This document shows, in pieces, positions 1-64,000 of a stretch of DNA of 64,000 nt. Position 1 is the first letter of the stretch, and each line of letters opens with the position of its first letter. The DNA lies in the NCBI GenBank assembly GCA_017625535.1, contig JAGAKR010000017.1:62001-126000 (forward strand), in the 5' to 3' direction. The DNA is from Bacteroidales bacterium (GTDB lineage Bacteria; Bacteroidota; Bacteroidia; Bacteroidales; UBA932). The notes below the pieces were generated by a model. The model saw only the letters and a program-made list of their open reading frames with translations. It was not told where the DNA came from and did no database searches. The position numbers and the translations under genes are program-made.

Positions 1-850
1 CATTCTCAATGGTCTCACGGTCCAACATTGTAAATATCTTAATGTATTTCTCGGCATCCTCATCACCTACGTTCATCCAGAACTGGTAGAAAGCGTATGG
101 AGATGTGTATTCAGGGTTCAGCCAGATGTTGCCTTTCTCTGTCTTTCCAAATTTGCCGCCGTCTGCTTTTGTAATGAGCGGGCAAGTAAGGGCAAATGCC
201 TCATTTCCGGTTTTTCTGCGGATAAGTTCTGTACCTGTGGTAATGTTGCCCCACTGGTCGCTTCCACCCATCTGCAGCTTGCAGTTCATATGCTCGTTGA
301 GGTATAGGAAATCATATCCCTGTACAAGCTGGTAAGAGAACTCTGTAAAAGACATACCCTCGCGGGCCTCACCTGTAAGGCGTTTCTTTACAGAATCCTT
401 GCTCATCATATAGTTTACGGTAATGTGCTTTCCAATGTCGCGGATGAATGAAAGGAATGAGAAATCCTTCATCCAGTCATAGTTGTTTACAAGCACTGCA
501 GCGTTCTCTTTGTCTGAATCAAAATCAAGGAAAATTGAAAGTTGCTTCTTTATGGCTGCAATATTGTGGTTAAGGGTAGCCTCATCCAAAAGGTTTCTCT
601 CTGCACTCTTCATAGAAGGGTCTCCAATCATACCTGTAGCGCCGCCAATAAGGGCGTAAGGTTTGTGGCCGCAATTCTGGAAATGTTTGAGCATCATAAT
701 GCTCACCAAGTGCCCGATGTGCAATGAATCTGCAGTAGGGTCAATACCCACGTATGCTGCAGTGCACTCTTTCATCAACTGCTCCTCTGTACCTGGCATC
801 ATTGTGTGGATCATTCCCCTCCAGGTAAGTTCTTCAACAAAATTCTTCAT
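1..850 (-). CDS. tyrS: Tyrosyl-tRNA synthetase, 3' part outside the window
   Basis: Class I aminoacyl-tRNA synthetase that charges tRNA-Tyr with tyrosine in the cytoplasm. Translation of the minus strand from the ATG at 850 gives about 283 residues before the window edge. The ATP-binding HIGH motif is present near residue 43 (LHIGHL), and the second class I signature appears as KFGKT near residue 230, the form known from bacterial TyrRS in place of KMSKS. The tyrosine-pocket stretch with QGYDFL and GGSDQWGN is also readable. The C-terminal tRNA-binding domain lies beyond base 1. A Bacteroidota -7 element (TACCTTTG on the minus strand) sits about 60 bases upstream. No internal stop was seen. 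The identity is secure; only the length is unknown. Confidence 0.97.
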
Positions 851-911
851 TGTATTTATATAATTTACGTTTAATATTTCTTTTTGGTACACAAAAACCT
901 GTGTCAACTGG

Positions 912-919
912 CAAAGGTA
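912..919 (-). promoter_or_regulatory. Bacteroidota -7 promoter element of tyrS
   Basis: The minus strand reads TACCTTTG here, an exact TAnnTTTG match, in the short gap between the NtrC-like regulator and tyrS. No good TTTG -33 box was found at the usual spacing. The expected transcript would have a leader of roughly 55 bases before the tyrS ATG. Confidence 0.5.
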
Positions 920-925
920 ACATTT

Positions 926-2236: not shown

Positions 2237-2280
2237 CTGTTTATTCTTCTTATAAATACCTGTAATACACCTTATTGCTA

Positions 2281-2332
2281 CAAATGTAAAAAATTTTTAC
2301 AAAATACAGAAATTGCGTAAACAAATTTTACA
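2281..2332 (-). promoter_or_regulatory. Promoter with two operator-like dyads upstream of the NtrC-like regulator
   Basis: On the minus strand TACATTTG (plus positions 2281-2288) fits the Bacteroidota -7 element. It overlaps a 17-base dyad, TGTAAAAAATTTTTACA, at 2285-2301. A second 17-base dyad of the same design (CGTAAACAAATTTTACA, about 14 of 17 positions shared) lies at 2316-2332, so the centres are 31 bases apart, about three helical turns. A dyad over the -7 box and another near -45 suggest negative autoregulation; this is inference from position. Confidence 0.5.
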
Positions 2333-2436
2333 TAAAATTCTGCATAAGGATTATAATTAGCAGATATACAATATTTAATAATGGTGTTTAATTTGGTTAT
2401 ATATTTTCTTAAGCAATTCAGAAATTCTTCCCTCTC

Positions 2437-3226: not shown

Positions 3227-3251
3227 CTATAGGTGATTTGGAATAAGATTG

Positions 3252-4645: not shown

Positions 4646-5569
4646 ATGGAATTCAGAGAGATTACATTAGAAGATAGAGATTGGATGCGTCAGTTGCTCG
4701 GTTATTCAGATAACCGGGCAACTGAATTTAATTTTACCGTACTGTTCATCTGGAGGGGGATAATGAACTCCAAGGTGTGCAGGGCGGATGATTTTTTTGT
4801 GGTGAGGTTCCACCCGCAGGGGGCACCTGACCCAATGTACATTTTCCCGGCAGGAAGGGGCACAGAGCAGCAGTTCAAGCACCTTATTCAGGAGTGTATG
4901 GCAGATGCAAAGGCATCAGGCCACCCTTTCCGTATGGCATCTGTACAGCAGGAGCAGAAAGAGGTTCTGGAATCCCTTTTTCCCGACAAATTTTCATTTG
5001 AACCGGTCCGCAACTCATTTGATTACATTTATTCAGCCCAGGACCTTACATTCCTCAGGGGAAAGAAGTTCCAGAGCAAGAGGAATTTTGTATCGAGGTT
5101 CAAGAGGCAGGAGGGATGGAGTTATGAAACTGTCGGGAAGGAAAATATTGCCGAATGTATGGAGATGAGCCTCAGATGGTGTGCAAAATATGGCTGTGGC
5201 AAGGACCCTTCAATGCAGAGCGAGTCCTGTTCTGTGAAGAATGCCCTGGATAATTTTCAGGAACTTGGGCTGCTGGGCGGGCTGCTCCGTCTTAATGGGG
5301 AGGTGGTGGCATTCACCATTGCGGAGAAGACAAATTCCGATACCCTGCTGGTGCATATTGAGAAGGCATACGGAGACATTGTGGGGGCATATCCAACCAT
5401 TGCAAATGAGTTCCTCAGAAACACAGTTGTTATAGATGAGGCGGCAGGTGAACTCTCTGTAAAATACATAAATAGGGAGGATGATGCCGGTGACTTGGGT
5501 TTGCGGGAGGCCAAAATGCAATATCATCCCCTCTTTTTGCTGGAAAAGTATTCGGTAAAAGAAAAATAA
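4646..5569 (+). CDS. DUF2156 (LPG-synthase C-terminal-like) acyltransferase-fold protein
   Basis: A 307-residue soluble protein of the DUF2156 family, which shares the GNAT-like fold of the aminoacyl-transferase part of phosphatidylglycerol lysyltransferases. Readable features are the N-terminal REITLEDRDWM, ATEFNFTVLFIWR, the basic stretch KKFQSKRNFVSRFKR and the C-terminal VKYINREDD with LREAKMQYHP, all of which recur in this family. There is no membrane region, so it is the free-standing enzyme domain and not a full MprF. The start at 4646 is chosen because it follows the S37 stop by one base; an in-frame ATG at 4613 would overlap that gene. The donor and acceptor cannot be told from sequence. 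Confidence 0.8.
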   Translation: MEFREITLEDRDWMRQLLGYSDNRATEFNFTVLFIWRGIMNSKVCRADDFFVVRFHPQGAPDPMYIFPAGRGTEQQFKHLIQECMADAKASGHPFRMASVQQEQKEVLESLFPDKFSFEPVRNSFDYIYSAQDLTFLRGKKFQSKRNFVSRFKRQEGWSYETVGKENIAECMEMSLRWCAKYGCGKDPSMQSESCSVKNALDNFQELGLLGGLLRLNGEVVAFTIAEKTNSDTLLVHIEKAYGDIVGAYPTIANEFLRNTVVIDEAAGELSVKYINREDDAGDLGLREAKMQYHPLFLLEKYSVKEK

Positions 5570-13434: not shown

Positions 13435-16400
13435 ATGTGCCCCGGTGTAAAATATAAAATTCTCCTTCTTATCTCTGCTATCCTGCTCTCCCATACTGCA
13501 ATGATGGGACAGTTTGTAATAAATGGCGGCACACCGGCTTCAACCCGCTGGATGCAGGTGAAGGGTGACAGATACAAAGTGATTTATCCTCAGGGGGCAG
13601 ACTCTCTGGCAAAGAGATATCTGTGGCTGCTGGAACAGAACAGCAGTGCGGTAATGCTGGGCCTGGGTGGAATAAAGCCTGCAGGAATTCCGGTGGTGCT
13701 CTACAATGGTACGGCAAACAGCAACGGAATGGTGGTATGGGCACCCAAAAGGATGGAACTCTTTACCCTTCCAATGAGGCCCTCGTATCCAGTAAGGTGG
13801 GAAGAGCAGCTTGCTGTACATGAGAGCCGCCACGTAGGGCAGATGACCCATTTTACAAAAGGAATCTACAAACTTGGAACAATACTTATAGGACAGCAGG
13901 CCCCATCCCTGGGAGTGGGGATATACCCTTCCCGATGGATGCTTGAGGGTGATGCCGTTGTGGCAGAAACGGAACTCACCAATTCCGGCAGGGGAAGGAA
14001 TGCAGAATTTATGGAGTACTACAGGGCAGCCTTCCTGGAGGGGGACATCCGCAGATGGGAGAGATGGAAGCAGGGGTCATATAAATACTATACCCCAAAC
14101 CTGTACGCAATGGGTTACCTCATAAACAGTACAATAAGGTACTCTACAGGCAAATATGCCTATGCCGGGGAGGTTTTTGACGGGTTTGTGAAGAAATTCT
14201 ACACCCCTTTTGCCAGGGATGTGAGTTATGAAAAATCTGTTGGGAAAGGCCCCCGCCTCTTCTTCAGGCGGGGACGTGAGATGATGACCGGAATATGGCA
14301 GGAGGAACTCGCGGCCAGGGGTACAATCACTGAGCCTCAGGAGCAACTGCTTGAAAGGGGCAAAGGGTATCAGGAGTATCTCTCACCCGTATCAGTTGGC
14401 AAAGATTCAGTACTTTACATAAAATACTCATATAACAATGCCGCTTTACTGGTGTTGGTTTCCGGAGGAAAAGAGGAGGTGATAAGGGGCTTCTCAGCAT
14501 CGGCATCGGGGTTCAGATGCCACGGAGACCATATCTATTTCACAGAAAACATATCATCTTCCCGATGGAGCAACTATGCCTTCGGCACATTGTTCCGCTT
14601 CAACTGGAGAGCAGCCCTGGAGGGAAGTGGGACAGCAGGGGAGAGGGGTATGAAGAGATTGTCGGGAAGGAAATATTATAAATCCCCTGATCTGAGTGTT
14701 GCCGGGGATACTGTTATGGTGGTGGAGTTCTTCCCTCAGGGGGGCTCTGCACTGGCGTTGCTGGATGCCCGGAGCGGTGAGGTTGTGCAGAAGATTGGGG
14801 CTCCGGATGGCGGACAGATTACTGAGAGTGTCTTTTTGGGCAATGATATATATGCGTTGGCAGTTACCGGGAGGGGACTGGGATTGTTCAGGATGCCGGA
14901 GGGGCAGGGGGAGTGGGAGAGTGTTGTAGGGGAGCAGGCGGCTTCCATTGAGGATCTGCATTGTGCAGTGGTGGAGGATGAAACCGGTGGCAGAGCAAGG
15001 GTCCTCTATTTTGTGTCGGATATAGACGGAGTAAGGAATGTTTATATGCTCAATCCGGTGGAGGGTGAACTCAGGAGGCTTACAAATTCAAGGTATGGAG
15101 CAACTGCCCCCCATATTGCAGAGGGGAACCTCTACTATTCATCTCTGGAACTTGGAGGCAGATTTCCTGTTAGGATTGCCCTGGCTGATGTAAGGGAGAG
15201 CAATTCGGCATTTGAGCCCCGTATGGAGGGGAATTCTCTTGTGGGGAATTACAGATACAGGGTTGCGGATGAACTCTCTGCGCAGGCCAGGGAGGCGTTG
15301 GCAGGGAAGGGGCTGCTGGCACCGCAGGAGGAGATGCTCAGGCGCAACGGCACCTCAATTGTCAATTACAGTGTGTCTGAAGAAGAGTTTGCAGAGAGTG
15401 TGGAGGCACAGAGATACAGCATATTGGGCAACTTGTTCAGGTTCCACTCCTGGGCCCCTGTGTACTACAATGTAGACCGTATAATGGAGTTTGATTTTGA
15501 CAAAATTTATGAGGTTGCCTCATTGGGTGCAACTGCATATTCCCAGAATACCCTTGGTACTGCTGTAACTATGCTGGGATATTCTTATCATAAGGGGCTC
15601 CTTGCGGGACATTTCAAGTTCAAGTATACCGGCTGGTACCCTGCATTCCAGATAGGTGCGGATGTAAATGCGGCAGAGCGTTATAATGTAAGGGTTGTGA
15701 GGGATTCTTCCGGAGTTAAAAGGGTTGTGCAGGAGGCTCCAGGGGCTCTTGTGGAATTGGATGCCCTTGCTTATCTCCCTATGAGTTTCAATTCCCACGG
15801 CTGGCAGAGAGGGCTGGTGCCACAGGTTAGGGTGGAGTATGACAATAACGGCTATTATGATACTGCAAAAGGGAAGTATCTGAACGGAGGTACAATAACC
15901 CCTGCCCTGCAGTTTTATGTGATGAGGGATATGGCCCATTCGGGGATATTCCCAAAATATGGTTTTGGAGGTGTTGCAAGGTGGAGGTTCTCATTCAATG
16001 GGGGTGAGAATTTTGGGGATGTGTCATCTTTATACTTGTATGCGTATCTTCCGGGCCTGGCTCCAAACCACGGTGTAAAACTCTCAATGAGCACCCAGCA
16101 CCACAATGCGGATGGGAAGAATTATTATCTGGGGAATCTGGTGGATATGCCCCGCGGATATGATGAGGATTTCTACTCCGAAAACTACTTTATGGGCACC
16201 TTCGATTATGCATTTCCAATATACTTGGGAGATACACACGTATGGAGGCTTGCCTATCTGAAGAGGATGCAGGTGATTCCGTTCGCAGATTATGCTGTGG
16301 GCAAATTTGCCGCAGGCAGGAATGGGAAAGCCGGCAATTCTGCGCTGTATTCCTGCGGTACAAGTGTGCTGGTGGATTTTGCCCCGTTCTCAATAGGGCT

Positions 16401-16512: not shown

Positions 16513-18360
16513 TTACTTGAGATTTCTTATTATGAGTTCGGCCATTTTTGGGCCTACTACAGCCTCAATTTCTTCGCGTGGGGCAGCCTTGAGCCGTTTT
16601 ACACTCTTGAAGTGCTGCAGCAGTTTCTGTTGGGTGGCTTCGCCAACTCCCTTTATCTGAAGAAGTTGTGAAGTAATCTGGTTTTTGGTCCTTTTGCTCC
16701 TGTGGTGGGTTATGCCAAAACGGTGGGCCTCATCCCTCAGATGCATAAGGAGTTTCAGGGCAGGGGAGTTCTTGTCCATAAACAATGGGGTAGGGTCGCC
16801 CGGAATCATAATCTCCTCAAGCCTTTCGGCAATGCTTATCACCTCTACGTGAGGGAGCGGTGTGCCGTCATTGTTTTTGCGCATAGGGGCACCTGGACGG
16901 TCTCCCAAAAGTCCCAGGTCTTTAAGGGCATCGTAGGCAAAATGGAGCTGGCCCCGTCCGCCGTCTATAACTATGAGTTGCGGAATGTCTCCCCCCTCTT
17001 CCAGCAGGCGGGAGTAGCGGCGGTGCACCACCTCATACATTGAGGCGTAGTCGTTTGCCCCTACCACTGTCTTTATGTTAAAGTGGCGGTAGTCCCGTTT
17101 GCTCGGTTTGCCGTTCCTGAACACCACGCAGGCTGCAACCGGGTTGGTTCCCTGGGTGTTGGAGTTGTCGAAACACTCTATGTGCAGCGGCAGGCGGTCC
17201 ATATGAAGGGCCTCCTTCAGTGCTGTAACCGCACGGTTTTTCCCCTCTTCCGGGTCCTTTATCTCCTCCTGTTTCATTTTCTGGAACTGGAAGGCCTTTG
17301 CATTTTTGGTACTGAGTTCCAACAGGCTCAGTTTGTCCCCCTTGAGGGGTATGTGCATATTGCGGGCAATGGAAAGGTTGTCGGGAAGAAAAGGTACCAG
17401 AACCTCTTCTGTGCGGTGTTCCCCCTGTGCCCGGGTTATCTGGTAGATTTCCTGCATGAAACGGGTGAGTACCGCCTCTTTCTCCTCCTCTATGTTAAGT
17501 TTGAAGTGGAGGTTGAGGGTCTGTATAATGCATCCTCCGTTAAGGCGGAAGAAGTTGCCGAATGCGTTGCCTTTCTCAAATACAATGGAGAATACATCCG
17601 TATTGGTTATGCTTGGGTGTACAATGAGCGATTTGCTGTAGTGGTTCTGCAGCATATCTATCTTCTCCTTGTATTCCTGGGCCTGCTCAAATTCCAGCGC
17701 AGAGGCGGCCTCCTGCATCTTCTTTTTGTATTCCCTTATGAGGCTGCCGGTGTTGCCCCTGAGCAGTTCCTTTATTCCCGATATCTGAAGGTTGTACTCC
17801 TCTTCTGAGATCTCCCCCACGCACGGGCCGGCACATTTTTTAATGTGTATGTTAAGGCAGGGCTTGAATTTGTTCTGTGCAATGCTCTCCCGGTTCAAGG
17901 CCAGTTTGCAGGTGCGGAGTTTGTAGAGTGAGTTTATGAGGTCAAGCAGATGGTGGGCGTGCTGTACAGAACTGTAGGGCCCAAAATAGAGCGAACCGTC
18001 CCTTACAAAACGGCGGGTTAGGAATATGCGGGGGAATGGCTCATTCTTTATGCATATCCAGGGGTAACTTTTGCCGTCTTTAAGCAGGATGTTGTATTTG
18101 GGCTGGTACTGTTTTATAAGGTTGTTCTCCAGCAGAAGGGCATCCTGTTCGCTCTCCACAACGGTATGCTGCACATCTGCAATCTTTGAAACCAGCACCC
18201 TGGTCTTTGTGGTGAGTTTATCCTCACTCACAAAGTATTGTGCCACCCTTTTCCTCAGGCTCTTTGCTTTTCCAATGTAAATTATGGTGCCCGAAGAGTC
18301 CAGGAAACGGTATACGCCCGGTTCCAGCGGAAGTATGCTTATTTTCTCTTTCAGGTCCAT
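16513..18360 (-). CDS. uvrC: Excinuclease ABC subunit C
   Basis: Nucleotide-excision-repair nuclease that cuts on both sides of a UvrAB-bound lesion; 615 residues, normal length. Domains in order: GIY-YIG nuclease (about 10-95: GVYRFLDSSGTIIYIGKAKSLRKR), a cysteine-containing segment (CLNIHIKKCAGPCVG, about 170-185), the UVR motif (about 205-240), an RNase H-like endonuclease domain (ECFDNSNTQGTNPVAACVVF, then LIVIDGGRGQL) and tandem helix-hairpin-helix repeats at the end (LLQIKGVGEATQQKLLQHF). Its start codon is only 24 bases from the divergent lipid acyltransferase start, and its end faces the metallopeptidase-like gene with a 9-base gap. Confidence 0.98.
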   Translation of the reverse strand: MDLKEKISILPLEPGVYRFLDSSGTIIYIGKAKSLRKRVAQYFVSEDKLTTKTRVLVSKIADVQHTVVESEQDALLLENNLIKQYQPKYNILLKDGKSYPWICIKNEPFPRIFLTRRFVRDGSLYFGPYSSVQHAHHLLDLINSLYKLRTCKLALNRESIAQNKFKPCLNIHIKKCAGPCVGEISEEEYNLQISGIKELLRGNTGSLIREYKKKMQEAASALEFEQAQEYKEKIDMLQNHYSKSLIVHPSITNTDVFSIVFEKGNAFGNFFRLNGGCIIQTLNLHFKLNIEEEKEAVLTRFMQEIYQITRAQGEHRTEEVLVPFLPDNLSIARNMHIPLKGDKLSLLELSTKNAKAFQFQKMKQEEIKDPEEGKNRAVTALKEALHMDRLPLHIECFDNSNTQGTNPVAACVVFRNGKPSKRDYRHFNIKTVVGANDYASMYEVVHRRYSRLLEEGGDIPQLIVIDGGRGQLHFAYDALKDLGLLGDRPGAPMRKNNDGTPLPHVEVISIAERLEEIMIPGDPTPLFMDKNSPALKLLMHLRDEAHRFGITHHRSKRTKNQITSQLLQIKGVGEATQQKLLQHFKSVKRLKAAPREEIEAVVGPKMAELIIRNLK

Positions 18361-27640: not shown

Positions 27641-27672
27641 TTTAAAACTGTCGGGAATAAAACTATAACAAT

Positions 27673-46514: not shown

Positions 46515-46559
46515 GGAATCCCCATTTTCTTCCCGACAGATGAAAATTTTCCATAATTG

Positions 46560-50552: not shown

Positions 50553-52073
50553 TTACTCCACCTTGCACTCTACTGTAACAACCTTGTTTTTGGCCAGGTT
50601 GTTTGTGATTGAGAGTTCTGCAGATTTGCCGTCTGCCGCAAATTTCCATTGGATGTGTATTGAGGTTACCCAGTTCACATAGTGGAATGAGGTGTTGAGG
50701 GTGTTTTTCTCCCAACCGTAGCTTGCAGAGGCATAGAATGGCCCCTCAAGTCCTTTCTTCCAATCTATAGGGTTCAAGGAGTATGGAGGGTACCCTGCAA
50801 TTTCCGATGTTTCCCAGTTCCTGTAACCAAGTTTCTGGGTGTAAGTTGAGCCATCCTGCATAACAATGTGCATAAGCATCTGCTGTTTGCCCACTTTCTC
50901 CAGTGAAACCTCTTTCCAGCCATAATTTGCAATAGGTACATTTTTGCCCGGAATAACTATTTTCTTCCCGACAATTTTTTTCTCAACAGATGAAGCGGCC
51001 TTTCCTGCAGGAAGTTCAAGGGTATAGGCAGCCTGTTTTTTCTTCAGCAACTCATAATCCTTGCTTGCAGGGAGCGGACCATCTGCCAAGGCAGGAAGGA
51101 ATTTGTCCCAGATAAGTCCTCTCTGAGGCTTGCCGTTGGTAAATGAAGCCTCTGTAAGTACTATAACCACATCTTTCTGAGGAACTACAATCACATACTG
51201 GCCAAGGGCGCCGTCAGCCCTTACTGCACTTGGATATTTGCACATCCAAACCTGATATCCATAGCCGTAGTCACCACCGTTGGCGTGTTTTGTACCCATC
51301 TGCTCAATCCATTCTTTTGATACCAGTTGTTTGCCGTCCCATACACCGCCATCGAGCCACATCTGGCCCACTTTGGCAAGTGATTCACTCTGGATATGCA
51401 AACCCCAGCCACCGGTATTTATCCCCTCAGGGCTTATCTCCCAGTTCACCTCTGTAATGCCCATTGGACCAAAAAGTTTCTCCTTAAGGTATTCAAGTAC
51501 GGTTTTGCCGGTAACCTTCTGCACAATTGCAGAGATCATATAGGTAACCATAGAATCGTATGCAAATACTTCTCCCGGTTTGTTTACTACAGGTTTTGAG
51601 AGGAATGTTTCCACCCAGTTGGTAACTTTTGCACGCATTCCCCAATCGGGTTTTATGCCCGACTGCATGGTAAGAAGGTCCTCCAGGGTCATTGCTGCAA
51701 GGTTTGTAGAGATACTGTCGGGAAGATGCTCAGGGAAAAATGCTGCAACCCTGTCTGTGAGGCGGAGCCTGTTCTCATCTATGGCAATTCCCACTGCAAG
51801 GCTCACAAGGGTCTTTGAACTTGAGTATTGGGTATGCCGGTACTCCGGTGCAAACGGTGCAGGATAGAATTCTCCCACAACTTTGCCGTGGCGCATTACA
51901 ATCATACTGTGAATGTCTGTGCCGGGCATTACGTGCAATGAGTCAAACAGGACAACAAGGGCCTTGGAAGGGACACCCTGCTCCTCTGGGGTGGAACGTG
52001 GAAGTTCATTTATCTGTGCATTTGCACCAATGGCCGTACAGGCCAGCAGAAGTATCAGAAAGAATCTTTTCAT
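50553..52073 (-). CDS. Serine hydrolase of the beta-lactamase/PBP4* family, exported
   Basis: A 506-residue protein with a signal peptide (MKRFFLILLLACTAIGANAQ). The class C beta-lactamase-like fold covers about 35-345: the SxxK motif is in QYSSSKTLVS (about residue 88), and GPMGITEVNWE and GYGYQVWM are typical later landmarks. A C-terminal beta domain of about 150 residues follows (from about 355). Such proteins are mostly esterases or D-amino-acid peptidases in the periplasm; drug resistance is not implied. A minus-strand TAAATTTG with CAA 20 bases further (52099-52129) forms its promoter. It lies inside the block enclosed by the inverted repeats. Confidence 0.85.
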   Translation of the reverse strand: MKRFFLILLLACTAIGANAQINELPRSTPEEQGVPSKALVVLFDSLHVMPGTDIHSMIVMRHGKVVGEFYPAPFAPEYRHTQYSSSKTLVSLAVGIAIDENRLRLTDRVAAFFPEHLPDSISTNLAAMTLEDLLTMQSGIKPDWGMRAKVTNWVETFLSKPVVNKPGEVFAYDSMVTYMISAIVQKVTGKTVLEYLKEKLFGPMGITEVNWEISPEGINTGGWGLHIQSESLAKVGQMWLDGGVWDGKQLVSKEWIEQMGTKHANGGDYGYGYQVWMCKYPSAVRADGALGQYVIVVPQKDVVIVLTEASFTNGKPQRGLIWDKFLPALADGPLPASKDYELLKKKQAAYTLELPAGKAASSVEKKIVGKKIVIPGKNVPIANYGWKEVSLEKVGKQQMLMHIVMQDGSTYTQKLGYRNWETSEIAGYPPYSLNPIDWKKGLEGPFYASASYGWEKNTLNTSFHYVNWVTSIHIQWKFAADGKSAELSITNNLAKNKVVTVECKVE

Positions 52074-52175: not shown

Positions 52176-53516
52176 ATGAACAGAGACGCCATAGATTTTC
52201 AGAATGCACCGGTTTCCAGACTTTTCAGGAAACTGCTGTTGCCAACACTGCTGGGAACACTCTCAATTGCAGCTGTTACGGCAATAGACGGCATATTTAT
52301 AGGCCACGGTGTGGGGGCTGATGGTGTTGCGGCTGTGAACATTGCAGTACCTATATACCAGATAATGTCGGGAATAGGATTGATGGTTGGAGTGGGATGT
52401 TCTGTGGCCGCGTCTATACATCTTTCGCAGGGGAAGGCCAAAGTTGCAAGATATAATGTTACCCAGGCAATTGTATCTACATCCATTCTGGCAGCCGTTG
52501 CGTGCGCGCTGGTATGGTGTTTCCCAAAGCAGACCGCATTGTTGCTGGGCTCTTCCCAAACACTGCTGCCGCAGGTGAAGGATTATCTTGTGTGGATAAT
52601 GCCAAGTTTCATTTTTGAGATGTGGAGCCTTATAGGACTGTTTATAATAAGGCTTGACGGCTCGCCCCGCTATGCAATGTGGTGCAACGTAATAAATTCC
52701 ATCCTTAATGCGGTTATGGACTGGGTGTTCATCTTCCCTTTGGATATGGGTGTAAAAGGGGCTGCCATTGCTACGGCAATAAGCATATCTGCCGGAGGAG
52801 TGATGGCTCTGGCATACCTGCTGTTCTCAAAAGGAAAATTGAACCTTATACCCCTCAAGGCCAGTACCAAGAGCCTCATGCTGGCTTTGCGCAATGTAGG
52901 GTACCATTGCAGGATAGGCTCTTCAACCCTGCTGGGGGAACTTACACTGGCAGTGTTCTTCTTTATCGGGAATCAGGTATTTATGCGTTACCTTGGGGAC
53001 AACGGAGTGGGGGCATTCGGCATTGCCTGTTATTATGCGCCGTTTTTCTTTATGGTAGGCAACTCAATAGCCCAATCTGCACAGCCCATAATAAGCTACA
53101 ACTACGGCATCTCCAGATGGGGCCACATTGCCCAGGCAAGAAGGCTGCTCCTTGGCACCTCTGCCCTGTTCGGGGTGGCAGTATCCCTGCTCTTCATTTT
53201 TATTCCCGACAGCCTGGTGGCCCTTTTCATAGCCCCTTCAACCCCCGCGGCAAGGATAGCCATTGAAGGGTTCCCCTATTTTGCCGCGGGAATCATATTC
53301 TTTATCCTGAATGTGGCAATCATTGGATACTACCAAAGCATAGAACAGGTAAAACGGGCCACTGTGATGGTTTTTCTGCGTGGACTGGTATTTCTGCTGC
53401 CAAGTTTCATTATGCTGCCCAAATTGCTTGGAATACCTGGAATATGGCTTGCAATGCCTCTTGCGGAGGCCCTTACCCTTGCCGTAATCACCTACATTCT
53501 CCTTGCAAAGAAATAA
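52176..53516 (+). CDS. MATE-family efflux transporter, second copy
   Basis: A 446-residue inner-membrane exporter with about 12 hydrophobic segments, of the NorM/MepA-like branch: LLLPTLLGTLSIAAVTAIDGIFIGHGVGADGVAAVNIAVPIY is the characteristic first helix pair, and FGIACYYAPFFFMVGNSIAQSAQPIISYNYG matches the second half. It is clearly different from the MATE gene at 35.3 kb and is not a recent duplicate. The start at 52176 is preferred because the upstream frame from 52134 spans the promoter element. Its 3' end overlaps the convergent DoxX gene by 25 bases. Confidence 0.9.
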   Translation: MNRDAIDFQNAPVSRLFRKLLLPTLLGTLSIAAVTAIDGIFIGHGVGADGVAAVNIAVPIYQIMSGIGLMVGVGCSVAASIHLSQGKAKVARYNVTQAIVSTSILAAVACALVWCFPKQTALLLGSSQTLLPQVKDYLVWIMPSFIFEMWSLIGLFIIRLDGSPRYAMWCNVINSILNAVMDWVFIFPLDMGVKGAAIATAISISAGGVMALAYLLFSKGKLNLIPLKASTKSLMLALRNVGYHCRIGSSTLLGELTLAVFFFIGNQVFMRYLGDNGVGAFGIACYYAPFFFMVGNSIAQSAQPIISYNYGISRWGHIAQARRLLLGTSALFGVAVSLLFIFIPDSLVALFIAPSTPAARIAIEGFPYFAAGIIFFILNVAIIGYYQSIEQVKRATVMVFLRGLVFLLPSFIMLPKLLGIPGIWLAMPLAEALTLAVITYILLAKK

Positions 53517-54342: not shown

Positions 54343-55074
54343 ATGGAGAGTCTTTTCAGCAAGGTAAAATGTATTGCATTTGATGCGGATGATACCCTTT
54401 GGGTGAATGAACCATATTTCCGCAAAGCGGAGGAGGAATATTGTGCTGTATTGGAGCGTTTTGCCGGCAGGGAAGAGATCATTGATACCCTGTATGGGAT
54501 TGAGATGAAGAACCTGGCCCCATACGGCTACGGAGCCAAGGCATTTACCCTTTCCCTTATGGAAACCGCAATCCTTTTCAGCAACAAAAGTGCTGTTCCA
54601 CCACTCACCCCATCAGAAATGCTGCGGATAATTGAAATAGGTACATCCCTGATAAATATCCCTATGGAAATCCTCCCCGGTGTGGAAGAGGTGTTGGAAG
54701 ATTTGTCGGGAAGCGGGAAATATACCCTTGTGGTGGCCACCAAGGGGGATTTGCTGGACCAGCAGAGGAAACTGGAGCGTTCAGGTCTGGCAAAGTATTT
54801 TCACCACATTGAGGTGATGAGCAACAAGGATGAAGCTGCCTTCAGCAGGCTTCTGGAGCACTTGGGCTGCCGCAATGATGAATTCCTTATGATTGGAAAT
54901 TCCATGAAATCAGACATCCTCCCCGTTCTTAATATTGGGGGGAATGCCATCTATATCCCGTTCCATTCAACGTGGGAGCACGAAAAGGTTGATGGGGAAG
55001 TGCAGCATCCAAACCTTTATGAATGCAATTCGTGCACAGAACTTAGAACTTCAGTTCCACTCCAAAGTTTATGA
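54343..55074 (+). CDS. HAD-family hydrolase
   Basis: A 243-residue phosphatase of the haloacid dehalogenase superfamily. Motif I is FDADDTLW (nucleophile Asp near residue 13), motif II VVATKGD (about 133), the motif III Lys is near 160 and motif IV is GNSMKSDI (about 184). The cap is alpha-helical (C1 type, about 20-100). The substrate is unknown: the family includes sugar-phosphate and nucleotide phosphatases. Its last 32 bases overlap the convergent DUF5686 gene. Confidence 0.88.
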   Translation: MESLFSKVKCIAFDADDTLWVNEPYFRKAEEEYCAVLERFAGREEIIDTLYGIEMKNLAPYGYGAKAFTLSLMETAILFSNKSAVPPLTPSEMLRIIEIGTSLINIPMEILPGVEEVLEDLSGSGKYTLVVATKGDLLDQQRKLERSGLAKYFHHIEVMSNKDEAAFSRLLEHLGCRNDEFLMIGNSMKSDILPVLNIGGNAIYIPFHSTWEHEKVDGEVQHPNLYECNSCTELRTSVPLQSL

Positions 55075-57583
55075 CCCAGGCGGTGGTTTTCTCGCCAAGG
55101 TAGTTGTGCCTGTGGTTGAGGCGCCAGTAGCTGTCTACCCTAAAGAGGCGGAAGATGTTGGTAATTCCAACTCCGGCTTCAAAGTAGGGTTTGCTTACTC
55201 CGCTCATTCCGGCAGGGAAGAGGAGATATGGCTGTGCAGCTCCCGGTGCAAATTGTCCGGTGGCAGGATCAGTATGGGATGAGATGTATTCTGCGCTTCC
55301 GTTGTTTTTGTCTTCCAGGGTTCCCACAACACCCCTGAATGATACCACTTCCCTCCATTTGAGTTTCTTGAGGAGCGGAATTTTGCCCAGGAAGAATCCT
55401 TTGAAGTTGTGTTCCCAGAACCATTGTACCCAGGTGTCTGATGCAAATTCGTAGAAATCCATACAGGCAAATGCACCTTCTGAGTTGAAGTAGGTACCGT
55501 TGCCTTCGTGCAATTTGAGGAACGGATATGGTACTTTGCCCCAAATTTTTCCTGCCTGAATCCTGAAGTATGATGTGCCAAGAGGTGGGAGGGCCAAGTC
55601 ATATCCAATCCCTATTTCACCCCTCAGGTAGTTGTAACTCCCTTTCCACAAATCTTTGAGCCCGGCCCTGATGTTGGCGGTGATTATAGGATAATCCGAG
55701 CCCAGATACATTTTGTCAAAATGGTCTCGGTTTACCATTTCATTCCAGCTGAGTCTGGCACCAAATCCTATGGAGGCGCTCCGTACGGCATTTACAATAG
55801 TGCTGTCGGGAGTATACATCTCCACATATCTGTTGCCGGCAATGCGGTTGATATCTGCGCTCCATATTGTGGTTATGCCGTCTGTCCACTCGTGTTCGTA
55901 TGAAAGGCTGCCCCGGTTAACCATACTCAGGCGCTGGCTGTTCCCTTTGGAGAGGAGAGAGCCCATTATGTTTCCCTCTGTAAAGGCATCCGAACCGGCT
56001 CCCAACTGCAGGGCATCCCGGCGGTATGTTGCGGTAAGTTTGCGGGTGGGCTGCTTGCCAAGCATATATTCTACTGTTCCTCCACCTTTCCACTCTTTGT
56101 CTTTTGTGCCGTATGCGGCATATCCTCCAAGCCGTATCTTTTTGCTCCAGTCTGAGGTTGTGCGGATGCCGGCCTGAAATCTGGCCCCTTCAAGATTATT
56201 GAAACTGAAGAGCTTGTAGTATGGGCCCAGTTCTATTTCCCCAAACTCATAATAGCCGCCAAACAGGGCGGAAACAATATTGTAGAGCGTGTTGTAGATC
56301 GGCACATTCTGAATGGAATCCACCATATTGTATATGTTCTGCTCTTTTTGGGTAAGTGCATACGGGCGCTCCTTTTCCCAGTAGGCGGGGTCATTCTGCA
56401 ACACATTTTCATCAATCACCACATTTGTGTTGAGTTTTAGCACCTCTTTTGGAGTGGGCTGGTTAATGGCCACATCTGAGTAGCTTACCTCCCTGTGCCC
56501 AAGGAATGAGACAATCTTTGAGGAATCGCTCATTGTAACGGAGAAATCTGCATAGAGTTTCTCCCTTTTGTTGAACCAGGTGGAATCATTTACAAGCTGG
56601 TTTTCCACATCAATTGCCAAATCCCTTACCCAGTTTACGTTAAGCCCCTTTACCATCTTTACGTGGGCATCACGCAGGGCCATTGTGGTTGAGTCTATTG
56701 TAAATTCACCGTCAAGCACCGGAGCGGATTTCATCTTTGGATGGAAACGGAGCTTGTAGGTCTTGCGTCCATCCACCTTCAGACTGTCTATAAGGTAATA
56801 GTTATAGTACATGAAGCCGTGCTCGCTCAGGGGAGAGGCAAACTTTATGTAGAAGATGTCTATGTAGTTGTCATACAGGTTCACATTGGCATGCAGATGC
56901 CCGGTAAATTGGGCCAAAGAGTAATCTTCCTCTATTCCCGATATCCTGCTGGCATCTATGATTTCCCTGGAAAGGGGAGGGTCCTTCTGCCTGTAGTGCC
57001 TTGCCGATGACTCAGTAATCATTATGGGAAGGTATGGTATTCCCGATATGGCAGAAGTATCCATATAATCCTCCACAAACCCAAAGTTCTTCTTCAGGAA
57101 CTTTATCTTCAGCAGGGGATCCACATTGGCAATGTCAAGTTCCATTTTGCTGTAGACTTTGCTCCGGGAACTCTCATATTCGTCGGGATTATTATATTTT
57201 TTCCTCTCATAGACCTTCTGCATAAAGGCCCTTACCTTCTTGTCATCTGCCTTTACGGTTACCCCTTCCAGCATTATGGAGAGGGGCTTGAGGACAAAAT
57301 TAAGTTCTGTAAAGCCTCCTGGGGTTATCTTGCCTTCTGAACCCTCATACCCCATCATCTCTGCCTTTAATGTTGCAGGGACACTCTGGCGGGTCTCAAT
57401 GGTGTACACCCCGTCAAAATCTGTGGTAACTCCCACAGTGGTGCCGGGAAACCATACATTCACAAAGGGGAGGGGCTCACCTGTAGTTGCATCCTTAACC
57501 GTACCCTTAACCTTTGTGGTCTGGGCAATGGCCGCAGTGCTTATCAGCAGCAGAGACAATATGTAAAAAAAATACTTTTGCAT
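55043..57583 (-). CDS. DUF5686 outer-membrane protein with carboxypeptidase-regulatory-like domain
   Basis: An 846-residue exported protein. A signal peptide (to about residue 20, AIAQ) is followed by a carboxypeptidase-regulatory-like (CarbopepD_reg_2) domain (about 23-110: VKGTVKDATTGEPLPFVNVWF, TTDFDGVYTIE), then the DUF5686 region (about 110-846). The last 400 residues alternate like beta-strands and end in WVINFGVELKF, the terminal aromatic expected of an outer-membrane barrel. Unlike SusC it has no TonB box or plug signature that I can see, and no SusD gene is nearby. The role is unknown. A minus-strand TACTTTTG (57603-57610) is the likely -7 box. Confidence 0.83.
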   Translation of the reverse strand: MQKYFFYILSLLLISTAAIAQTTKVKGTVKDATTGEPLPFVNVWFPGTTVGVTTDFDGVYTIETRQSVPATLKAEMMGYEGSEGKITPGGFTELNFVLKPLSIMLEGVTVKADDKKVRAFMQKVYERKKYNNPDEYESSRSKVYSKMELDIANVDPLLKIKFLKKNFGFVEDYMDTSAISGIPYLPIMITESSARHYRQKDPPLSREIIDASRISGIEEDYSLAQFTGHLHANVNLYDNYIDIFYIKFASPLSEHGFMYYNYYLIDSLKVDGRKTYKLRFHPKMKSAPVLDGEFTIDSTTMALRDAHVKMVKGLNVNWVRDLAIDVENQLVNDSTWFNKREKLYADFSVTMSDSSKIVSFLGHREVSYSDVAINQPTPKEVLKLNTNVVIDENVLQNDPAYWEKERPYALTQKEQNIYNMVDSIQNVPIYNTLYNIVSALFGGYYEFGEIELGPYYKLFSFNNLEGARFQAGIRTTSDWSKKIRLGGYAAYGTKDKEWKGGGTVEYMLGKQPTRKLTATYRRDALQLGAGSDAFTEGNIMGSLLSKGNSQRLSMVNRGSLSYEHEWTDGITTIWSADINRIAGNRYVEMYTPDSTIVNAVRSASIGFGARLSWNEMVNRDHFDKMYLGSDYPIITANIRAGLKDLWKGSYNYLRGEIGIGYDLALPPLGTSYFRIQAGKIWGKVPYPFLKLHEGNGTYFNSEGAFACMDFYEFASDTWVQWFWEHNFKGFFLGKIPLLKKLKWREVVSFRGVVGTLEDKNNGSAEYISSHTDPATGQFAPGAAQPYLLFPAGMSGVSKPYFEAGVGITNIFRLFRVDSYWRLNHRHNYLGEKTTAWVINFGVELKF

Positions 57584-58145: not shown

Positions 58146-58742
58146 TTATTTGAACTCCTTTACAGGGGTGTCATATACGGTGTAGTTGCCGTTTGGCTCC
58201 ACCATCTTCATTACGCACAAAGAGAAGTCCTTTTTGCTGTAACTGAGCACCAATTCAACATACTGGCTCTTTGCCCCTTTTCCTTTGGCAAGGGTGAAGG
58301 TGTAGTATTTTGGGGTATCCTCAAATTTTATTGTGGCGTTGTTCTCTGCTGCTACAGCCGCCACATCACCGCCCACACTGTAAAGGAGGGTGTTCTTGAG
58401 GGTTGCCATACGGCCGTCACCTTTTACATTTGATGAGCGTTTCTGTTTGCCGCTTATCATTGTAAGTGCATCGCCGTTGATGTCAAGCAGGTCGCCTGCA
58501 GGGGTGGTGTATTCCATCTTCAATTTGTCGGGACGGGTATATGTAAGGTTTCCTTCAGATACCAGTTCCTTCTCCATCATTACCATGTTTGCAGTTTTGG
58601 TAAATTTGCAGGTAATGGTGCTGTATTTTGCATTTGCATCTGCAATCTTCTTTATTGCAGCGTCACACTCAGGTGAGTTCTGTGCATTTGCAGCAAATAC
58701 CGCTGCAAAAAGCATTGCTATACAGGTAATAATACTTTTCAT
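58146..58742 (-). CDS. LolA-like outer-membrane lipoprotein carrier, pigment cluster
   Basis: A 198-residue periplasmic protein with a signal peptide (cleavage near ANAQ, about residue 21). The LolA fold is suggested by FTKTANMVMMEKELVSEGNLTYTRPDKLKMEY, then GDLLDINGDALTMISGKQKR and the C-terminal GAKSQYVELVLSYSKKDFSL. LolA-like proteins are standard members of aryl-polyene clusters (ApeL) and are thought to ferry the lipid-linked pigment across the periplasm. ATGs at 58748 and 58742 are both possible. The foldback element lies about 40 bases upstream and separates it from fabG. Confidence 0.82.
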   Translation of the reverse strand: MKSIITCIAMLFAAVFAANAQNSPECDAAIKKIADANAKYSTITCKFTKTANMVMMEKELVSEGNLTYTRPDKLKMEYTTPAGDLLDINGDALTMISGKQKRSSNVKGDGRMATLKNTLLYSVGGDVAAVAAENNATIKFEDTPKYYTFTLAKGKGAKSQYVELVLSYSKKDFSLCVMKMVEPNGNYTVYDTPVKEFK

Positions 58743-58925: not shown

Positions 58926-59654
58926 TTATGAATACAATCCTCCGTTTATTGAGATAACCTCACCGGTAATGTATGAGGCATCCTTTGAGCAGAGGAATCC
59001 AACAAGTGCAGCAACCTCCTCAGGATTGCCAAAGCGTCCTGCAGGAATCTGTGCAACAAGCTCCTCCTCATTCAACCCCTCAACCATATCGGTCTTTATG
59101 AAGCCCGGAGCAACGGCATTTACAGTAACACCCCTCTTTCCAACCTCCTGTGCAAGCGCCTTTGTAGCGGCAATTATACCACCTTTGGCAGCAGAATAGT
59201 TGGTCTGGCCCGGCAAGCCCTTTAATCCCGACAGCGATGCCATATTGATCACCCTGCCGAATTTTTTCCTCAACATTGGCTGGATGAGCGGCTGGGTAAC
59301 ATTGTAGAAGGCATTAAGGCCCGTACCGATAACTTTGTACCAGTCATCTGAAGGCATAAGCGGAAGGATGTTGTCTTTCCTTATTCCGGCATTGTTCACC
59401 ACCACCTCAATGTATTCACCTTTGTGGGCAGCCTGCCACCCAGTGATTGCAGCGGCAGTCTCATCAAGGTTTGAGACGTCAAACTTAAGGAGTTCTCCGG
59501 TGCTTCCTGCCTCCTCAATCATTTTGAGGGTATCCAGGGCGTGAGCCTCGTTAGAAACGTAATTTACAATTACATGGTATCCCATAGTGGCCAGTTTTAC
59601 ACTAACTGCCCTGCCTATTCCGCGGCTTCCGCCTGTTACAAGTGCATATTTCAT
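58926..59654 (-). CDS. fabG: 3-oxoacyl-ACP reductase (FabG/ApeQ-like)
   Basis: A 242-residue short-chain dehydrogenase that reduces 3-oxoacyl carriers with NADPH. TGGSRGIGRA (about 7-16) is the cofactor motif, NNAGI (about 87) follows, and the catalytic Ser-Tyr-Lys set is MASLSGLKGLPGQTNYSAAKGG (Tyr about 152, Lys about 156). The C-terminal NAVAPGFIKTDM is FabG-like. Because it lies within the pigment-type cluster it is probably the dedicated ketoreductase (ApeQ-like) and not the housekeeping FabG; this cannot be proven here. It lies 13 bases after the FAD oxidoreductase gene. Confidence 0.9.
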   Translation of the reverse strand: MKYALVTGGSRGIGRAVSVKLATMGYHVIVNYVSNEAHALDTLKMIEEAGSTGELLKFDVSNLDETAAAITGWQAAHKGEYIEVVVNNAGIRKDNILPLMPSDDWYKVIGTGLNAFYNVTQPLIQPMLRKKFGRVINMASLSGLKGLPGQTNYSAAKGGIIAATKALAQEVGKRGVTVNAVAPGFIKTDMVEGLNEEELVAQIPAGRFGNPEEVAALVGFLCSKDASYITGEVISINGGLYS

Positions 59655-61197: not shown

Positions 61198-61199
61198 AT

Positions 61200-63674
61200 T
61201 TATTTTCGTTCTTTCCACTTTTTGTAAATGTTGAACAGGAACGGCTCAAGTATGTAAGTTATGGAGATTGTAGAAGCCATACCTATAAGGGTTGAGAGTC
61301 CTATTGAACTTATTGCAGGGTGGGTTGCAAACATAAGGGATGCAATGCTCAGGATGAGGACAACAGCAGAGAAGAAGATTGCTGTCTTGTGGTAAGTGAG
61401 CAGTTTGGGATTGTCACGTCCAAGCAGCCCGTCCATTACAAATATGCTGTAGTCTACACCTATTCCAAAGATGAATGTGGATATTACAATGTTTATGAGG
61501 TTGAATTCAAGACCAAACAAACCCATAACCCCCAGCACAATGTACCAGCTCATGCTCATAGGGAGGAATGCAATGAGTGCAATTGCAATGTTGCGGAAAG
61601 AGAGGAGCAGCACCACAAGTACAAAGAGTGATGATATTCCCAGCACCACATTGAAATCATCATTGAGCAGTTCCACCATATTCTGGGTATAGAAGAACGG
61701 ATCTGCAACAATTATGGCGTTTGAAGGGATTCCCTCTGTACCCTTAACCAGGGCGTTGCTCACCGCCAGCATATCCTCAGGCAATGCCTGAGCGGAGGTG
61801 AACACGAGATATGTGCTGTCTGTATACTCCACAAGGTTTGCCAGAAGCCCATCAGGGATTATCCCTGCATCCACAAGGGAATTCACCTCAAACTCCCCTT
61901 CCACAAGCCCCATAAACGGCTCAAACATCCCCTCCTTGAATCCCTGTTTCTTTCCTGCGGCAGAGAGCATCTTCTCTGTGCGGGCAACTTTCTTGGCGCT
62001 CCAGAACTCCTGCCACTGTGCTATCCTCGCCTCTGTTACATCAGATGGGAGGAGCAGCATTGCAGAGTTTGTATATTTCTTTATAAGCCCACTGTCTGCC
62101 AATGCCTTGCAGTGCTTTTCAAGTGCAATGTTGTAGGCAAGTGCGCTGTCAAGGTCTTTAGAGAGAACAGCAAAGTATTTGCTCTCCATACCCGGCATTG
62201 TCTTTCGGGCCATAATCTGCCCCGAGCGCACAACGTCAGGCTCATTGTAACCTATGTTCTTTAAGTTTGAATCAAAACCTACGTTCCTTCCGGTAAAGAG
62301 TGAAACGGCAAAAACAACCAGTACCAGCGCCACAAGCCATTTCTTTTTCTCAAAAGGATATGTGTTCAGTTTCTCTATAAAATCAAACGCCTTCCTGTTC
62401 ATCCTGTTGTTCTCAGGCCTGAAGAAATGCGGCAGGAACACCAGACAGAACACTGTTGTGCCCACCATTCCAAGCGAGGCAAACAGTCCGAAGTCTGAAA
62501 GCAACTCTGATTTTGTAAACAGAAGCCCCATAAATGCACCAATGGTGGTGAGGCTTCCCATAATTACCGGTTTGGTCTGTTCGCGCAGAACCCTCTCCGG
62601 ATCACTTACATATTTGTAATGGGTAAGCACGTGCAGGCAGTAACTCAAAGCCACACCCAGTACAATGGCCCCAATGCCCAGAGCCATAAGGGACATGCCA
62701 CCCTTTATGATGTATATTCCCGACAGAGCAAAAAATGCCCCGTACACTACAGGGAGCAGCAGCATTGCCAGGGTGCTCTTGTTCCTGAAACAGAACCATA
62801 TGATAAGGCATATGAGCACCAGTGAGAAACTTAGGGTTGTGGCAAGGTCGCTCTTTATCTGCCTTGAGTTGAACACACTTTGTACAGGTGCTCCGTGGAA
62901 GAGTACCTCAATCTCAGGGTTCGCCGCCTCAAATTTATCAATCTCCCTCTCCAGCATCTCTACAAGGAAGGTTCCCTGCTGCGAGTCAAATGCCTTGAAG
63001 TTGGGGGAGAGGAATGCAAGGGCTACGGTGCTGTCGGGAGTGAAGAAATGCCCCTCCACAACTTTGTAGGTGCCTCCCATCATACCTGCAATGTCCTTGT
63101 TCTGCTCCATGAATATCTTGCGCATTGCAAGCGGGTCTGTCCTTACTATATCGTACCAGAACATTCCCTGTGCAGAGTAGAGCAACTCCACATTCTCTGC
63201 CATAACCTCATCTGCATACGCAGGGTTGAGGATTGAATCCAGGGCAGGGTAGAAGCGCCCGTCCAGGAACTGGGGCACATTCTCAAACAGGTAGCCGAGG
63301 GCATCCTGCAGGATGTAGTCATCCAGTCTCCAGGTAAGGTCCGCTATATAGTTTGTAGCAGTATCCTGTAATAAAAGCGAGTCTGCAAAGGCATCGGATG
63401 CCTCTGCCAAGGTGTATAAACTCTCCTCATTGTATGCAGTTGTATCCTTGAGGAGGAACTCCAGGAATATCTTGTCCTTTACTTTAAGGTTGTTGAATGC
63501 AAAGCCGGCAGATTTGCTCTCATCTGTAGAGGGAAGGAGTTTGGAAATGTCCTCTTCGTATACAACTTTGCTCCCCAAAAATACAAACAGCAGGGAGGAT
63601 GCAACCAGCAGGGTATAAAATAGAGCGCGGTTCTTGCCCAGCGCCCTATACAGTTTTATTACAAGATCTGTCAT
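61200..63674 (-). CDS. MMPL/RND-superfamily exporter, pigment cluster
   Basis: An 824-residue inner-membrane protein with the two-fold RND layout: one membrane helix (about 20-40), a large periplasmic loop (about 45-240), five or six helices (about 245-440), a second loop (about 450-640) and a second helix set (about 650-815). Motifs GIGAIVLGVALSYCLHVLTHY and IFGIGVDYSIFVMDG are the paired signatures of MMPL helix 4. In aryl-polyene clusters the corresponding protein (ApeM) is the proposed pigment exporter. The start at 63674 fits the first helix; a longer frame to 63713 reaches the stop codon of the dehydratase gene. Confidence 0.87.
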   Translation of the reverse strand: MTDLVIKLYRALGKNRALFYTLLVASSLLFVFLGSKVVYEEDISKLLPSTDESKSAGFAFNNLKVKDKIFLEFLLKDTTAYNEESLYTLAEASDAFADSLLLQDTATNYIADLTWRLDDYILQDALGYLFENVPQFLDGRFYPALDSILNPAYADEVMAENVELLYSAQGMFWYDIVRTDPLAMRKIFMEQNKDIAGMMGGTYKVVEGHFFTPDSTVALAFLSPNFKAFDSQQGTFLVEMLEREIDKFEAANPEIEVLFHGAPVQSVFNSRQIKSDLATTLSFSLVLICLIIWFCFRNKSTLAMLLLPVVYGAFFALSGIYIIKGGMSLMALGIGAIVLGVALSYCLHVLTHYKYVSDPERVLREQTKPVIMGSLTTIGAFMGLLFTKSELLSDFGLFASLGMVGTTVFCLVFLPHFFRPENNRMNRKAFDFIEKLNTYPFEKKKWLVALVLVVFAVSLFTGRNVGFDSNLKNIGYNEPDVVRSGQIMARKTMPGMESKYFAVLSKDLDSALAYNIALEKHCKALADSGLIKKYTNSAMLLLPSDVTEARIAQWQEFWSAKKVARTEKMLSAAGKKQGFKEGMFEPFMGLVEGEFEVNSLVDAGIIPDGLLANLVEYTDSTYLVFTSAQALPEDMLAVSNALVKGTEGIPSNAIIVADPFFYTQNMVELLNDDFNVVLGISSLFVLVVLLLSFRNIAIALIAFLPMSMSWYIVLGVMGLFGLEFNLINIVISTFIFGIGVDYSIFVMDGLLGRDNPKLLTYHKTAIFFSAVVLILSIASLMFATHPAISSIGLSTLIGMASTISITYILEPFLFNIYKKWKERK

Positions 63675-63713
63675 AATTTCAATTTGTGCAAAAATGCCTG
63701 CGGAAGGCTCCAA

Positions 63714-64000
63714 TTACTTTATTGGAGAGAGTTCTGCAGATATTTCAAAGAATTTCATCTCCGGGTCGCCAAGTTTGCTTCCGGTTGCCTTCATCTTGTA
63801 GATGAGGCCGGTCCCCTCTTTCTCCTCCTGGTTCAGATGTATCTCCACCATAAGGTTAGGATGCTCCTGTGGGGTAATTACGGAGAGGAGCCTGTACTGC
63901 TTTATGTAGCTTATAAGGAGCTGTTCGTGTGCCATTATCTGGGCACACTCCTTCACCATCTGCAATGTACACACTCCAGGACATACCGGTTCACCGGGGA
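63714..64000 (-). CDS. FabZ/ApeI-like hotdog dehydratase, 5' part outside the window
   Basis: The frame is open to the window edge. The outermost codons read PGEPVCPGVCTLQMVKECA, matching the FPGxPVxPG signature of beta-hydroxyacyl-ACP dehydratases of the hotdog fold. FLSVI-like residues (RLLSVITPQEHPNLMVEIHLN) and a final beta region follow, ending in SAELSPIK. The length and the PVCPGVC variant suggest the ApeI-type enzyme of aryl-polyene or flexirubin clusters. The stop codon is at 63714-63716, 39 bases before the MMPL start. The catalytic His lies just beyond the edge. Confidence 0.78.
   Translation of the reverse strand, partial: PGEPVCPGVCTLQMVKECAQIMAHEQLLISYIKQYRLLSVITPQEHPNLMVEIHLNQEEKEGTGLIYKMKATGSKLGDPEMKFFEISAELSPIK

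Follow-up and report, generated by a model that had tools for sequence, protein, structure and literature searches.

Copies of the octamer

The stretch analyzed here, referred to as the window, is 64,000 nt of a Bacteroidales bacterium (GCA_017625535.1, contig JAGAKR010000017.1, positions 62,001-126,000), and it carries 24 exact copies of the octamer TGTCGGGA, 15 on the plus and 9 on the minus strand. A sequence-only reading had counted the same number, and its coordinates proved correct except for one copy given at 53214, which lies at 53204. The same reading had called two copies (27649 and 46531) intergenic, and both do fall between long open reading frames (ORFs). The copies are listed below.

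4981..4989, minus strand, copy of TTGTCGGGA
5130..5138, plus strand, copy of CTGTCGGGA
14659..14667, plus strand, copy of TTGTCGGGA
17378..17386, plus strand, copy of TTGTCGGGA
23486..23494, plus strand, copy of CTGTCGGGA
27648..27656, plus strand, copy of CTGTCGGGA between ORFs
31064..31072, plus strand, copy of TTGTCGGGA in a close inverted pair
31114..31122, minus strand, copy of CTGTCGGGA in a close inverted pair
34626..34634, minus strand, copy of TTGTCGGGA
36184..36192, plus strand, copy of TTGTCGGGA
41894..41902, plus strand, copy of TTGTCGGGA
43707..43715, minus strand, copy of TTGTCGGGA
45990..45998, plus strand, copy of CTGTCGGGA
46531..46539, minus strand, copy of CTGTCGGGA between ORFs
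50966..50974, minus strand, copy of TTGTCGGGA
51715..51723, plus strand, copy of CTGTCGGGA
52366..52373, plus strand, copy of TGTCGGGA after A, the only one of the 24 without a preceding C or T
53204..53212, minus strand, copy of CTGTCGGGA
54703..54711, plus strand, copy of TTGTCGGGA
55803..55811, plus strand, copy of CTGTCGGGA
58525..58533, plus strand, copy of TTGTCGGGA
59226..59234, minus strand, copy of CTGTCGGGA
62718..62726, minus strand, copy of CTGTCGGGA
63031..63039, plus strand, copy of CTGTCGGGA

Across 100 dinucleotide shuffles of the window the octamer occurred on average 1.11 times and at most 5 times, and under a third-order Markov model it was the top-scoring of all 8-mers, with 24 copies against 1.2 expected; GTCGGGA, previously put at about 35 copies, was found 36 times, where 2.9 were expected. 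Genome-wide (G000, 2.18 Mb) there were 740 copies of TGTCGGGA (356 plus, 384 minus) compared with 84 (38 and 46) of the same word read backwards, which served as the control in genome-wide counts. Two larger samples were modeled, one consisting of the window and 20 further stretches of G000 (450 kb) and the other of 20 evenly spaced stretches (400 kb) of a sister genome, G034, which is a single 2.229-Mb contig. The excess was upheld in the G000 sample by an order-4 Markov model in which the motif was retained (180 copies versus 31 expected). When the motif was masked in modeling, TTGTCGGGA occurred 84 times versus 7.0 expected (12-fold) and CTGTCGGGA 84 times versus 4.8 (18-fold) in G000, and CTGTCGGGA occurred 131 times versus 2.4 (55-fold) in G034. 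Density of the strict word was 0.33-0.37 per kb, and that of a wider word in G034 was 0.64 per kb. The palindrome TCCTTAAGGA was also over-represented in the window, with 8 strand counts, equal to 4 places, versus 0.24 expected.

Anatomy, placement and turnover

The octamer forms the core of an element that extends further. This is YTGTCGGGA, with a 3′ tail that is A-rich and strand-specific and a 5′ side on which the A-richness is weaker. The base 5′ of the core was C or T in 23 of the 24 window copies and in 168 of 180 copies in the G000 sample, where A was also preferred at fixed positions 3′ of the core. Flanks in G034 held 1.45 bits on the left and 2.19 bits on the right against a noise level of 0.20, and position +14, counted from where the 9-mer begins, was an A in 68% of copies in genes of the same orientation, 67% in genes of opposite orientation, and 85% between genes. 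Because the A-rich tail tracks the strand of the motif in both gene orientations as well as between genes, it is part of a DNA element and not of a protein, and the tail remarked on in the sequence-only reading is real.

There was a halo of near matches around the 9-mer in G034, with 155 one-off copies versus 53 expected and 5 of 27 variants raised, among them CTGTCGCGA (40 versus 1.1) and CTATCGGGA (33 versus 3.0); in G000, under the motif-masked model, TTATCGGGA occurred 34 times versus 4.5 and TCGTCGGGA 25 times versus 1.3. The ratio of perfect to one-off copies was 0.69-0.71 in G000, 0.85-0.99 in G034 and 0.41 in G020, a genome of the second dialect described below, compared with 0.13 for Chi in a 400-kb sample of E. 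coli K-12, the sole such yardstick measured, and 0.025-0.030 for reversed words. The motif thus has 3-8 times the ratio of Chi and 14-40 times that of reversed words, yet remains below one.

Copies fell on both strands, in and between genes, and by simple longest-ORF calls were spread over three main classes of frame and orientation in G000 and four in G034, so that the several codon frames previously claimed were borne out. Within ORFs were 158 of 180 copies in G000 and 98 of 131 in G034, and the copies outside ORFs in G034 numbered 33 versus 15.4 expected. The spelling of proteins was informative as well. The tripeptide Leu-Ser-Gly was spelled YTG-TCG-GGA in 48 of 103 instances in G000 versus 1.07 expected from codon usage (45-fold) and in 19 of 70 in G034 versus 0.33, compared with 4 of 88 versus 2.04 in five motif-poor sister species. 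As had been supposed from the window alone, codon bias does not suffice; the motif excess is selected at the DNA level.

Spacing of copies was more even than random in G034 (P 0.0005 to 0.002). Close pairs of the wider motif at 8-50 bp comprised 11 inverted and 1 direct in G034, with 7 expected of each, and 8 inverted and 5 direct in G000, with 5.7 expected of each. In three inverted pairs (L059:11088-11114, L011:10707-10730 and L025:5681-5703) the starts lie 14-19 bp apart and the 9-bp arms are perfectly complementary, matching reports for uptake-signal pairs in other bacteria, and no T run follows any of the three, which makes a role as terminators uncertain.

Turnover was assessed from blastn alignments of at least 65% identity between G000 sites and other species carrying the same word, the weakly enriched G021 included. 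The 9-mer was retained in 21 of 44 comparisons, which partly share G000 sites and are not independent, versus 8% for nearby control 9-mers, and 20 of 25 listed homologous sites were gap-free inside the 9-mer, their differences being one to several substitutions. Against motif-poor species there were 5 comparable sites and none was retained. These alignments show turnover of the motif by substitution.

One of the 20 G034 stretches, and only one, had no copy of CTGTCGGGA (L021:1-20000, at G034 C1:1320001-1340000). This locus is low in GC and devoted to polysaccharide biosynthesis, with glycosyltransferases, Wzy and MBOAT. Its lack of copies would suit exclusion of the signal from exchanged islands, although a single stretch of low GC does not test that idea.

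Dialects within the genus

Counts of TGTCGGGA covered 61 genomes, 37 of the genus and 24 from other families of the order. The nearest relatives of G000 came from the herbivore gut where a source was stated. The octamer reached at least five times its reversed word in 12 of the 37 genus genomes (G000, G001, G005, G006, G007, G009, G010, G012, G017, G022, G024 and G034). A second word, YRTCGCYGAG, was counted in 39 genomes, including G061 and G062, which are absent from the first count, and exceeded its control by a factor of five or more in 12 of them (G003, G004, G011, G013, G014, G016, G020, G026, G027, G028, G031 and G032), for example 670 versus 28 in G032, compared with 9 versus 22 in G000. 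It fell below the reversed control in genomes of the first dialect (G000; G007, 4 versus 12; G024, 4 versus 13). A third word, YYATCGBGA, was three- to sixfold enriched in G013, G014, G018, G023, G025, G029 and G061 and was raised elsewhere, up to ninefold in G010. Since G013 and G014 carry two words, the dialect words overlap. There was little or no motif in 10 of 39 genomes (G002, G008, G015, G019, G021, G030, G033, G035, G036 and G062), although among these ten one word exceeded its control three- to fourfold in G002 and G036, and an excess of about twofold was seen in several others.

Common to all dialects are R-T-C-G and the A-rich tail. Motif-bearing groups, once aligned on TCG, have a pyrimidine preceding the R and a tail rich in A at about +8 to +12 from the T of TCG. 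The A column is strongest at +8 in the third dialect and in first-dialect species including G000, at +9 in the second dialect, and at +11 in G034. In five motif-poor species the flanks of these words stayed close to noise. De novo k-mer discovery recovered the same words where samples were large enough; for many sister species the sample was small, as little as 6 kb, and some species were unplaced. The genome-wide dialect counts are firmer than these samples but limited to three words. In samples of the motif-poor G008 (L032, L140 and L163) and G015 (L121-L122 and L158-L161) other words were enriched, namely AACCTGCTC (14 versus 0.7) and CATCTGAAC (22 versus 2.1), possibly as local repeats.

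Identity of EF-G to that of G000 served to gauge kinship within the genus. Apart from G034 and G001, the strong first-dialect species had 89 to 98% identity, the values for G007 and G009 coming from partial matches and the copy of G012 itself not being listed; motif-poor G008, G015, G019, G030 and G035 had 87 to 89%, and listed species of other dialects 80 to 82%. G034 and G001 were at 80 to 81% despite carrying CTGTCGGGA, and the weakly enriched G021 was at 96%. Among other Bacteroidales, 28 loci of 4 to 23 kb showed no comparable enrichment of the three words, short lengths at which a weaker signal could escape; six near loci were enriched, one of them (L170) with only three copies.

A probable uptake signal and its alternatives

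We judge it probable that the motif lets cells recognize their own DNA in natural uptake, as a signal of the kind represented by the uptake signal sequence (USS) of Pasteurellaceae and the DNA uptake sequence (DUS) of Neisseriaceae, and that it evolved separately in one genus of uncultured Bacteroidales from gut and rumen. Features of those signals are taken here from published papers, Haemophilus and Neisseria genomes lying outside the data measured. PMC1626085 gives these hallmarks: copies of both signals occur about once per kb, lack an orientation bias, are spaced somewhat regularly and prefer non-coding DNA, and some form close inverted pairs; the consensus is very strong, relatives have related words, and in USS the core is followed 3′ by AT-rich segments. 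Neisseriaceae have eight DUS dialects with a common CTG core, and five genomes of the family are without obvious repeat (PMC3630211). Most of these statistical hallmarks were found here, some in one of the two genomes only: copies number in the hundreds (740 versus 84 in G000; 131 versus 2.4 in G034), orientation is unbiased (356 versus 384 in G000; 58% versus 57% in G034), an A-rich segment lies 3′ of the core, and relatives carry related words. Of the three roles proposed in the sequence-only reading, that of uptake fits best, an FtsK-orienting role failed on polarity, and Chi, though still a rival, fits poorly in flanks, dialects, strand and excess.

Comparison with the two known signals shows likenesses and differences. 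Like the AAGTGCGGT and ACAAGCGGT types of USS (PMC1626085), the motif has a 9-bp core with an A-rich segment directly 3′, is present in hundreds of copies on both strands without favoring an orientation, comes in clade-specific types, originates by point mutation and, in G034, is evenly spaced. Unlike USS, its core is unrelated, its density is lower, three dialects occur in one genus, no pilus-type ATPase passed the cut-off, and a single A-rich segment lies 3′, with a weaker one on the 5′ side, where USS has two 3′ segments. As in DUS, dialects surround a short invariant core (CTG in DUS, TCG here) and some relatives lack an abundant repeat (PMC3630211), but the sequence differs and DUS is described as having no flanking motif (PMC1626085). 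DUS is moreover bound by the pilin ComP, whereas genomes with the motif have no detected pilus-type ATPase. Because no such ATPase passed the cut-off and uptake is itself deduced, we do not file the motif in the USS or DUS families.

From the motif and its anatomy, its turnover by substitution, its dialects, its scarcity in some sister species and the ComEC, DprA and ComEA-like genes, we infer an uptake function, a reader and a drive behind the copies. A sequence-specific surface or periplasmic protein would bind the double-stranded core, and the A-rich 3′ tail may help to bend or open DNA at the entry pore, entry then proceeding by ComEA-like, ComEC and DprA steps. Tagged DNA of kin would be preferentially taken up and recombined, so that copies would accumulate by biased replacement of point-mutant alleles; dialects would arise as reader specificity changes, and the signal would decay where uptake is lost. 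On balance, and a little less firmly, we also favor the fuller proposition that this uptake signal arose separately in Bacteroidota, has at least three dialects and was lost several times in one genus, and is read by a receptor other than a type IV pilin.

Genes that could serve such a process are widespread. ComEC was found in 38 of 39 genomes, DprA in 38 of 39, HHH_3 in 39 of 39 and NamZ_N (PF07075, which we take to be the DUF1343 family) in 39 of 39. In G000 the ComEC protein scored above the cut-off for the ComEC N-terminal model and below that for full ComEC/Rec2, with the Pfam Competence domain only; its gene stands alone, the neighbors being mostly ordinary metabolism, and open frames listed at the ComEC match elsewhere in the genus were mostly 357 to 479 aa. 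An HHH_3 protein of G000, with 343 residues, has two helix-hairpin-helix stretches and matched ComEA models below their cut-offs, and a ComEA-like gene lies in the same neighborhood in G000 and in motif-poor G019. Within the phylum transformation is documented for Riemerella, which uses ComEC, DprA, ComF and RecA plus four proteins unlike known uptake machinery, including a triple helix-hairpin-helix protein and a DUF1343 protein (PMC8459023). By analogy, transformation may be supposed for the present genus.

Several observations weigh against an uptake signal. The type II/IV secretion and pilus ATPase family PF00437 was above its Pfam cut-off in none of 39 genomes, with weak sub-cut-off matches in 31 of them, compared with 13 of 14 control genomes above cut-off; this ATPase is the only type IV pilus component on which the comparison rests, secretins and pilins not having been searched, and the known uptake signals depend on type IV pili. 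ComEC, DprA, HHH_3 and NamZ_N are present in motif-poor species also, and the genomes missing ComEC or DprA (G005 and G006) both bear the motif, so that gene presence does not track the signal; none of these four genes, nor PDDEXK_1/AddB, separates motif-bearing from motif-poor species (each in 38 or 39 of 39). The ComEC of G000 is short, at 363 residues (L058:15871-16962, G000 C5). No reader protein was found. Statistically, the density of the strict word and a ratio of perfect to one-off copies below one fall short of values reported for USS and DUS, and the overall number of close inverted pairs was not above chance in G000 or G034. In G000, copies outside ORFs were only weakly raised (22 versus 17.8 expected), spacing was not significantly even (P 0.08 to 0.54), and the halo was small once the C/T alternative was set aside (136 versus 113), with only TTATCGGGA and TCGTCGGGA clearly raised.

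An alternative explanation could be a Chi site of the AddAB of the genus, in which AddB, unwinding DNA from a broken end, would read the motif on one of the strands, stop degradation and load RecA. We consider this unlikely, but since AddAB is present it is still a live rival. There is a canonical AddB-AddA pair in G000 (945 and 1052 aa), PDDEXK_1/AddB matches were found in 38 of 39 genomes (G028 being the miss), and the motif, like E. coli Chi (GCTGGTGG), is short, non-palindromic and over-represented, being G-rich, octamer-sized and present about once per 3 kb. Chi words also vary between bacteria (PMC1193525). Against this, CTGTCGGGA showed no orientation bias along replication beyond composition in G034, the leading to lagging count being 76:55 of 131 (58%) versus 57% predicted by composition alone, with the halves inferred from GC skew over 400 kb and not from a located ori or dif. 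In the E. coli sample Chi was 71:27, or 72% leading versus 63% by composition, given the K-12 oriC and terminus positions that we presume. The excess of Chi was 2.5-fold (98 versus 38.7 expected), so that the 12- and 18-fold values in G000 and 55-fold in G034 are about 5 to 20 times as high. The A-rich flanks and the G034 halo were much weaker or absent at Chi, whose flanks held 0.52 and 0.66 bits (noise 0.26) and whose one-off copies numbered 756 versus 675 (1.12x), raised in 1 of 24 variants. In addition, such words are scarce in five species of the genus that have AddAB, and a tunnel that reads single strands would not predict an A-rich tail lying 3 to 6 bases past the core on the strand of the motif.

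Rather improbable as well is a site for an abundant double-strand DNA-binding protein that organizes the chromosome with no link to uptake, the motif then being a non-palindromic counterpart of nucleoid-structuring or HIP1-like repeats. A core with A-tracts is an anatomy suited to double-strand binding, and even spacing in G034 and occurrence on both strands and in genes and spacers alike would fit. Scarcity in about ten sister species and wholesale change of dialect, however, would be unexpected for an essential organizer, the tight consensus is what biased uptake predicts, and no candidate protein is known.

It is very improbable that the motif is a by-product of codon usage, of a repeated protein motif or of a mobile short repeat. 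Most copies do lie in ORFs (158 of 180 and 98 of 131), but they are spread over three or four main classes of frame and orientation as well as spacers, and Leu-Ser-Gly is spelled as the motif 45 times more often than codon usage predicts in G000 and only 4 times versus 2.0 in the five motif-poor species; codon bias and repeated peptides were rejected on these several frames and the synonymous spelling. Mobile repeats were rejected on the homologous sites, whose differences are mostly substitutions, 20 of 25 listed sites having no gap in the 9-mer. Marking of restriction sites was also dropped, such sites being usually avoided in genomes rather than enriched. Finally, an FtsK-orienting polar sequence (KOPS) steering FtsK toward dif shares with the motif a G-rich octamer in many copies, but is next to impossible given that polarity in G034, with halves drawn from GC skew, did not exceed composition for CTGTCGGGA, stood at 173:163 for the wider motif, and showed no switch at the change of skew.

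Sequence-tagged uptake is described for two proteobacterial families, both with type IV pilus proteins, and as of 2006 was unknown in other transformable bacteria (PMC1626085). In the portion of the open-licence literature covered, no paper was found that describes TGTCGGGA, or any uptake signal or Chi word for Bacteroidota. If the motif is an uptake signal, it would be the first outside those two families as far as the literature search shows, and would have two further implications. First is that uptake signals could evolve repeatedly and with another receptor, as no pilus ATPase was detected, and a genus that includes both dialects and losses is one in which reader and signal could be matched. 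Secondly, widespread kin-selective transformation would be implied among rumen and gut Bacteroidales, and natural transformation would be a live route of gene exchange in those of the herbivore gut.

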